In this document: in pieces, positions 11,193 through 11,393 of the stretch
Numbering within the stretch: position 1 is the first letter of the stretch
Layout of the letters: each line of letters begins with the position of its first letter
Origin: Aquisalimonas sp.
Lineage (GTDB): Bacteria; Pseudomonadota; Gammaproteobacteria; Nitrococcales; Aquisalimonadaceae
Assembly (NCBI GenBank): GCA_007127625.1
Contig: SKYZ01000224.1
Span: 1 to 12,764 of the forward strand
DNA: 12,764 bases
Reading direction: 5' to 3'
Program-made: the position numbers and the translations under genes
The notes under the pieces: generated by a model
The model's database searches: none
Seen by the model: only the letters and a program-made list of their open reading frames with translations
Told to the model about the DNA's origin: nothing

Positions 11193-11207
11193 GCCTAGCG
11201 TTAAGGC

Positions 11208-11264
11208 ATGATGAACCGGACCGCAACGCTGCTTCGACTGCGACTGCTTGGCCCGGCTTCCTGA
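11208..11264 (+). CDS. leuL: leuA leader peptide (leucine-rich attenuator peptide)
   Basis: This is an 18-codon frame beginning with tandem ATGs (11208 and 11211), reading MMNRTATLLRLRLLGPAS and ending in TGA at 11262-11264. A TAAGG ribosome binding site (11202-11206) is better placed for the second ATG. Codons 8-14 are CTG-CTT-CGA-CTG-CGA-CTG-CTT, so five of seven encode leucine and the other two are CGA, which is usually rare in GC-rich genomes. It is immediately followed by a strong hairpin and precedes leuA on the same strand. This is the signature of a ribosome-mediated attenuator, in which scarce charged tRNA-Leu stalls the ribosome and lets transcription reach leuA. The name leuL is by analogy with enterobacteria; sequence homology is not claimed. 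Confidence 0.75.
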   Translation: MMNRTATLLRLRLLGPAS

Positions 11265-11283
11265 AGGAAGACCGGGAGCAAGT
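11246..11283 (+). promoter_or_regulatory. Leader hairpin enclosing the leuL stop codon (pause/protector stem)
   Basis: CCCGGCTTCC (11252-11261) pairs with GGAAGACCGGG (11266-11276) over 10 bp with a single bulged A. The TGAA loop (11262-11265) contains the leader stop codon. The stem can be extended by CTTG (11247-11250) with CAAG (11279-11282), reaching the last leucine codon. A ribosome stalled on the leucine codons would cover the left arm and free the right arm to pair elsewhere. A ribosome finishing the peptide would sit on the loop. This matches the 1:2 stem of classic attenuators. Confidence 0.7.
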
Positions 11284-11360
11284 GCATGGCGTGGTTTGTG
11301 GCGGTTTCTGCAGTCGGGTTGAAACAATGTCCTCTTCAAGTTTTCCAGTGAATCGATCCT

Positions 11361-11393
11361 CCGGGCGGTGGATGTCCATCCACTCGCCGGTTT
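11361..11393 (+). terminator. Candidate attenuator terminator of leuA
   Basis: GTGGAT (11368-11373) pairs with ATCCAC (11378-11383) around a 4-nt loop. A G-U pair and then a CCGG/CCGG base (11361-11364 with 11387-11390) lengthen the stem across a small internal loop, and it is followed by TTT (11391-11393). The U-run is short, so termination strength is uncertain. It lies about 100 nt after the leader peptide. The CTCCGG at its 5' side (11359-11364) could pair with CCGGGAG of the leader hairpin's right arm (11272-11278, one bulge), which would give a competing antiterminator. A further hairpin (GCCCGG/CCGGGC, 11425-11430 with 11437-11442) follows without a U-run. Confidence 0.45.

Follow-up and report, generated by a model that had tools for sequence, protein, structure and literature searches.

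Enteric bacteria carry leuL upstream of leuA, a leader encoding a Leu-rich peptide that comes with a terminator/antiterminator pair. A leucine-rich leader peptide and such a pair are also described before leuA in Shewanella (PMC2659441). In Actinobacteria, leuA is preceded by the LEU element, for which the published description gives a leader ORF with a run of Leu codons, a pseudoknot and a base stem involving the leuA Shine-Dalgarno sequence, and no terminator (PMC1262725). Leaderless leader peptides have been reported as well: LeuL1 of Streptomyces lividans is located before leuA without a typical terminator (PMC8079986), and trpL of Sinorhizobium meliloti is leaderless (PMC10117765). In the tandem attenuators of Salmonella mgtCBR, two signals, ATP and proline, are described as acting additively (PMC3641672). 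Tandem T-boxes, a different device, precede leuA in Bacillota (PMC12452182), and reinitiation at leader genes has been treated in general (PMC4833913). Among the literature matches listed, with most subscription journals outside the scope of the search, none concerned a LEU element or tandem Leu leader peptides before leuA outside Actinobacteria.

The window, that is the whole stretch of 12,764 nucleotides analysed here, is a contig of a draft genome that is 83% complete. The flanking genes are those given by the first-pass annotation: an HNH gene upstream (10569-11192) and a type II leuA downstream, with its ATG at 11521. The HNH protein is small, and its HNH part resembles Cas9d and IscB models with scores far under their cut-offs. 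Between the two genes, a conserved Leu-codon leader stands before type II leuA. The leucine attenuator that had been proposed at this place keeps its Leu-codon leader, its ribosome binding site is doubtful, and its terminator/antiterminator mechanism is not supported in this lineage; the core of the observation holds, and two of its details do not. It had also missed another Leu-rich ORF downstream, as well as a predicted pseudoknot and predicted long-range stems. The whole element goes beyond an ordinary classical attenuator in size and in kind, with a probably leaderless leader 1, a pseudoknotted leader 2 and stems over the next start site. Its parts are the following:

11173..11201, + strand: promoter-like -35 TTGACC (11173-11178), 17-nt spacer and sigma70-like -10 TAGCGT (11196-11201), from a promoter scan
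11208..11264, + strand: leader 1, ORF MMNRTATLLRLRLLGPAS then stop, probably leaderless, from window letters, relatives and shuffles
11212..11322, + strand: predicted stem P1, leader 1 codons 2-6 (11212-11225) with 11309-11322 just 5' of the leader 2 ATG, from fold and swap test
11252..11276, + strand: hairpin P2, leader 1 stop codon in its loop, from predicted folds
11327..11491, + strand: leader 2, Leu-rich ORF, translation ending in TG then stop, from window letters, relatives and shuffles
11364..11388, + strand: hairpin read earlier as a terminator, within leader 2, then GG and UUUA, from fold and terminator scan
11406..11517, + strand: predicted base stem, leader 2 CTG-TTT-GCT-CTT (11406-11415) with the leuA ribosome-binding region GGAGCAAGCA (11508-11517), from fold and swap test
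11417..11478, + strand: LEU-type module CTGCGACTG, arms 11431-11442 and 11451-11462 (11/12 pairs), loop 11443-11450, from covariance model and alignment
11444..11478, + strand: pseudoknot GCTGGC (11444-11449) with GCCAGC (11473-11478), from swap test and alignment
11521..12764, + strand: leuA, type II 2-isopropylmalate synthase, continuing beyond the window end

We propose, with a probability of roughly 0.52, that leuA is controlled by a two-step, ribosome-dependent leucine sensor, a relay of two leaders that would act mainly via start-site access. The ORFs, the promoter spacing, the conservation and the covariation of hairpin and pseudoknot are well supported, and the two long-range pairings have statistical support.

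Leader 1 starts at ATG 11208 (alternative ATG 11211) and stops at TGA 11262-11264. As had been reported, its 18-codon frame holds five Leu in seven codons (LLRLRLL) and its stop codon lies inside a hairpin loop; this hairpin, P2, is present by eye in the predicted folds of 17/17 loci. Two Leu-dense ATG ORFs (at least 5 Leu in 8 codons) are found within 11193-11520, while dinucleotide shuffles of this stretch gave at least one such ORF in 43/5000 cases and two in 0/5000. All 14 family genomes examined, the window's own genome included, possess leuA, and in each of them leader 1 is found before it with an invariant CGACTG core. The first-pass annotation would have been contradicted by a frame that is not conserved in close relatives, which is not what we observe. 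The leader ends with PAS before the stop codon in 13/14 of these genomes and with PVS in L012, the hairpin loop holding the stop codon. Counted by eye, leader 1 has between 2 (L012) and 6 (L005) Leu codons, with at least 4 in 12/14 genomes; third positions vary (e.g. CTT/CTA/CTG) and the codons stay Leu. Three more order members (L101, L103, L104) have the same type of leader 1, and in the order loci L105, L106 and L108-L116 it ends otherwise, mostly with LLLR(L/R)ARS before the stop (by eye). In four of the latter (L106, L108, L109, L116), the Leu run and stop codon of leader 1 fall in a hairpin-like stretch, and the sequence that comes next is rich in C and poor in G. A local CGACTG/CGGTC hairpin was considered as the cause of the conserved CGACTG and set aside by eye, since its pairing breaks without compensation in several loci.

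The -10 box of the window ends 6 nt before the leader 1 ATG. A TTGAC-like -35 with a -10 box at 6-7 nt from the leader 1 ATG was found in 26/28 order loci, the ATGs of the other family (L105-L116) being picked by eye. These 28 come from 30 order loci with leuA, two of which (L102, L107) were left out as their contigs hold no leader 1 region. The exceptions are L104, with a gap of 10 nt, and L011, which was scored at -2 though a TAGCTG at 6 nt is visible. As a control, the same scan at 17 leader 2 ATGs gave scattered gaps. Because of this spacing, leader 1 is probably leaderless, with a transcription start, as placed from the promoter spacing, at or next to the AUG. The AAGG that had been taken for its ribosome binding site sits between the -10 box and the ATG, and is therefore probably not transcribed. 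A Shine-Dalgarno sequence for leader 1 is, by the same spacing, unlikely.

The predicted fold makes a single long hairpin of the region from leader 1 through the stretch before leader 2. For the long-range stems, we used swap tests in place of plain alignment. Indeed, the alignment of leuA upstream regions that had been suggested as a check, run on the 14 leader 1 regions with MAFFT and RNAalifold, recovered part of P2 and none of the other stems, because sequence alignment misaligns the variable P1 strands. When the P1 partner strands were exchanged between 17 loci, 0/20000 permutations paired as well as the native set, and the outcome was the same with near-duplicates removed (15 loci). Control stretches gave 3855/20000 (upstream) and 3932/20000 (after the leader 2 ATG); swap tests and shuffles leave relatedness in, and these controls address kinship in part. 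The window's own P1 pairing is not the best of its row, ranking 5 or 2 of 17 depending on the stretch used. An earlier look at P1 by duplex energy, with longer stretches, was less clear, with rank 1 in both row and column in 3/14 loci (L004, L007, L012). By eye, the 3' strand of P1 contains an AGG/GGA-like stretch before the leader 2 ATG in several genomes. The swap tests thus indicate that the first codons of leader 1 pair with the stretch before leader 2. In a simple masking calculation, a ribosome footprint placed where the Leu run of leader 1 begins, on its first Leu codon, raised the mean computed openness of the leader 2 start from 0.33 to 0.41, with higher values in 12/17 loci (p=0.009), a modest effect. 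No rise was seen with the footprint at the leader 1 stop codon (p=0.40) or with a control footprint (p=0.58).

In the window, the Leu run of leader 2 reads CTC CTG TTT GCT CTT CTG CGA CTG. The module hairpin (11431-11462) comes just after it, and its loop pairs with a stretch 10 nt downstream. We aligned 46 sequences from Gamma-, Beta- and Alphaproteobacteria and Cyanobacteria, fitted to the hairpin and not to the pseudoknot. Matches with E>0.05 were left out, which dropped three true-looking members (L035, L036, L044) and three false ones. Across the 17 pairs of the module, 91.5% of cells are paired, versus 81.6% after shuffling; none of 500 shuffles reached the real value, and sliding the partners destroys the signal. 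Both sides have changed in 14/17 pairs, 10/12 in the hairpin and 4/5 in the pseudoknot, whose variants include GTGGC/GCCAC, ATGGC/GCCAT, GCTGGC/GCCAGC, GCGGC/GCCGC, GCGAC/GTCGC and GTGAC/GTCAC. Thus, the hairpin and pseudoknot predicted in leader 2 are supported by compensatory changes.

For the pseudoknot, 51 loci were used: 43 model matches minus four (L001 and L003 on the minus strand, L063 at 3744 and L030 at 3738), which were removed before the test, plus 12 hand-parsed loci. The swap test gave 1/20000 (46 distinct of the 51 loci). At least five contiguous pseudoknot pairs were present within the stretch searched in 43/51 loci, and fewer in 8/51. In two of the five genus members (L005, L006; loops of 45-48 nt), the search found no pseudoknot. 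Three of the 14 family genomes (L013-L015) have no module match, and their second ORF is poor in Leu; no module was seen by eye in the order members L105, L109, L111, L112 and L116. Rfam returned four rows up to E=1 for the window (miRNA, RNAI etc.), none of which is a leucine leader or comes near its gathering score, and, for eight relatives, only a tRNA at gathering scores.

Other traits of leader 2 recur among relatives. A peptide (V/I)(Y/F)CAL before the Leu run (window 11390-11404) is found in the window's genus and in L007, L010, L011 and L101; either pairing requirements or the peptide itself may explain why it recurs. In L005, L006 and L012, the leader 2 frame is open up to the leuA start, so that translational coupling would be possible there; in several other genomes, the leader 2 stop codon is located in the hairpin loop.

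The second long-range pairing joins the Leu codons of leader 2 to the leuA start, on a leuA strand (11508-11517) that includes GGAG. In 46 loci, 0/5000 swaps paired as well, the leuA starts being set by an automatic rule and the stretch being chosen after scanning 15 combinations in the family (best 74/5000); an upstream control stretch gave 2017/5000. The signal is weaker in the 14 loci near the window (58/5000) than in the other 32 loci (0/5000). From these swap tests, it appears that the leuA ribosome-binding region has its partner in the Leu codons of leader 2. A stem between the leader 2 5' end and the stretch that precedes leuA was also tried, and was rejected because its swap tests were not significant. 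Masking leader 2 gave higher computed openness of the leuA start in 8/13 loci, which is not significant (p=0.08), and a control footprint did as well (10/14, p=0.08). As masking gives no support for the step from leader 2 to leuA, covariation and position are what this second step rests on.

From this anatomy, we infer the regulation, namely the transcription start, the stalling, the direction of the response and any role of Rho. Leader 1 would be translated without a Shine-Dalgarno sequence from a transcript starting at or next to its AUG. By default, its first codons would be paired in P1, leaving the leader 2 start hidden. Under a shortage of charged Leu-tRNA, a ribosome stalled on the leader 1 Leu run would keep P1 open, allowing leader 2 to be translated. 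The Leu-codon region of leader 2 would itself be the 5' strand of the base stem, which would hide the leuA ribosome-binding region. Stalling on the last Leu codons of leader 2 would prevent the pseudoknotted hairpin and free the leuA start. With plentiful leucine, ribosomes would pass, the structures would close and leuA would be little translated, the uncovered transcript then perhaps being ended by Rho.

This last step can also be taken as the whole mechanism. Ribosomes on the leaders would then cover the transcript, Rho would act at an untranslated leader 2, and the folds would only set leader translation. Such Rho-dependent attenuation is in line with the fact that no intrinsic terminator was found and with the reach of leader 2, which extends near or up to leuA in L001, L003, L004, L005, L006 and L012. 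The C-rich stretches after leader 1 in L106, L108, L109 and L116, seen by eye, could serve Rho; in the window, however, the stretch after leader 1 is G/U-rich and not C-rich. We hold Rho-dependent attenuation to be rather improbable as the sole explanation, and it is compatible with the two-leader relay as a second layer.

Another possibility is that a protein or other ligand binds the module of leader 2, which would then not be a ribosome-stalling device, its Leu codons being incidental. Seliverstov (2005) preferred a binding protein as the explanation of the actinobacterial LEU element, since the effects of leuA leader mutations were at odds with classical attenuation (PMC1262725). By eye, the hairpin and pseudoknot are also kept without a Leu run in five order members (L108, L110, L113-L115), where leader 2 has only one or two Leu, so that the module may sense something else there. 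Nonetheless, Leu-rich frames recur at the same place in distant relatives, and the 32 loci that are not close to the window support the pairing of the Leu region with the leuA start. Apart from the pseudoknot strand, the module loops differ between loci in both length and sequence. A ligand-binding site is thus an unlikely account of the module.

The first-pass annotation had placed a terminator-like hairpin before leuA, with competing terminator and antiterminator structures. The hairpin exists, at about 11361-11390, and is followed only by UUUA; a consensus terminator scan of the + strand from 11000 to 11600 found none. By eye, the predicted folds show a hairpin at the corresponding place in 4/5 genus members (L001, L004, L005, L006); L003 is able to form it and folds otherwise, and no U-tract common to the five members was seen after it. 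With neither a scan match nor a shared U-tract, the terminator was rejected as a conserved feature, and it may hold in the window's own lineage. As no conserved intrinsic terminator was found, the competing mechanism is not supported in that lineage. In three non-gamma relatives (L132, L133, L136), a hairpin with a T-run (T8, T9 and T6) stands by eye between leader 1 and leader 2; leader 1 there therefore looks like a classical transcription attenuator, and terminator logic appears to suit these loci better than the window. Classical attenuation, in which stalling on leader 1 would choose between an antiterminator and the hairpin near 11361-11390, has the right Leu codons, a hairpin with UUUA that most genus members fold, and the T-runs of these relatives on its side, but is highly doubtful here given a hairpin lying within leader 2, a + strand with no terminator-like site, a genus with no shared U-tract and a P1 stem that covaries and yet has no U-tract.

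The relay of two leaders gains from the specificity of the module. A covariance model, R1, built from 13 sequences, gave 43 matches at E<=1 in 94 loci, 39 of them just upstream of leuA (10 of these 39 being seeds); of the remaining four, two are palindromes on the reverse strand and two lie inside leuA. Among 369 genomes of the class, 12 had a match at E<=0.01, 11 before leuA and one false; two of the 11 (G000, G053) are sources of model seeds. Across 398 genomes of the phylum, ten had a match at E<=0.001, all ten before leuA, eight being new to the model and five outside the class. These whole-genome searches used stricter filters, and weak members were therefore missed. One match, in L128, is false and lies by eye inside an ABC-F-like gene. 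In the 94-locus search, the genera with a match include Denitromonas, Paralcaligenes, Achromobacter, Janthinobacterium and Massilia, and the cyanobacteria Microseira, Calothrix and Chlorogloeopsis; several of these stand at E 0.02-0.07, and Calothrix had no pseudoknot in the pseudoknot search. A promoter-proximal leader 1 and the module occur together in 14/18 loci viewed by eye. Two sister-family genomes without a full-length close LeuA match (G028:C169:8148-8255 and G029:C147:2970-3077) have, in short open frames, a 36-residue piece 75% identical to the LeuA start, possibly a gene remnant or a contig effect.

More broadly, we tentatively suggest, at somewhat less than even odds, that these loci belong to an unnamed and widespread class of leader RNA, in which the codons of a leaderless leucine sensor hide the start of a pseudoknotted second leucine sensor, and this second sensor hides the start of leuA. 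The tandem form would be that of Proteobacteria and Cyanobacteria, and the actinobacterial LEU element the one-sensor form. If so, part of the Proteobacteria and Cyanobacteria would control the first committed step of their leucine synthesis by an RNA element that works without an intrinsic terminator and is unmatched by Rfam in the loci scanned (the window and eight relatives). Such a leader would bring together leaderless translation, stall codons with a pseudoknot next to them and stems that hide start sites, which are usually studied apart. It would also offer a testable mechanism for the LEU element, on whose mode of action the 2005 work did not decide.

Compared with known systems, the window shares with the classical leu attenuator the Leu-rich leader peptide, and neither its U-tract intrinsic terminator nor a match to a curated RNA family was found. 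Likewise, the Shewanella leu attenuator (PMC2659441) resembles it by the Leu-rich leader before leuA, whereas here there are two leaders and no intrinsic terminator was found. As in the mgtCBR leader (PMC3641672), two short leader ORFs share one leader RNA; unlike those described there, both have Leu codons and are linked by predicted start-hiding stems. LeuL1 and trpL (PMC8079986, PMC10117765) are read from the first nucleotide of the transcript, as leader 1 probably is, but each is described as a single leader, with no pairing to a second leader in those descriptions, whereas two leaders are present here.

The closest counterpart is the LEU element, as far as it is described (PMC1262725). 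The window has its leader ORF with a Leu-codon run, its hairpin just after, its pseudoknot from loop to downstream stretch and its base stem between Leu codons and the leuA ribosome-binding region, again with no intrinsic terminator found. In seven actinobacterial loci, the parts follow one another by eye as they do here, the hairpin loop containing the stop codon, and in their swap test of Leu region against leuA start 39/5040 permutations were as good. The module matches the LEU element in anatomy; model R1 gave no match at E<=1 in these seven loci. The module differs by its presence in Proteobacteria and Cyanobacteria, and by its position in a second leader, away from the transcript start and behind a probably leaderless leader 1.
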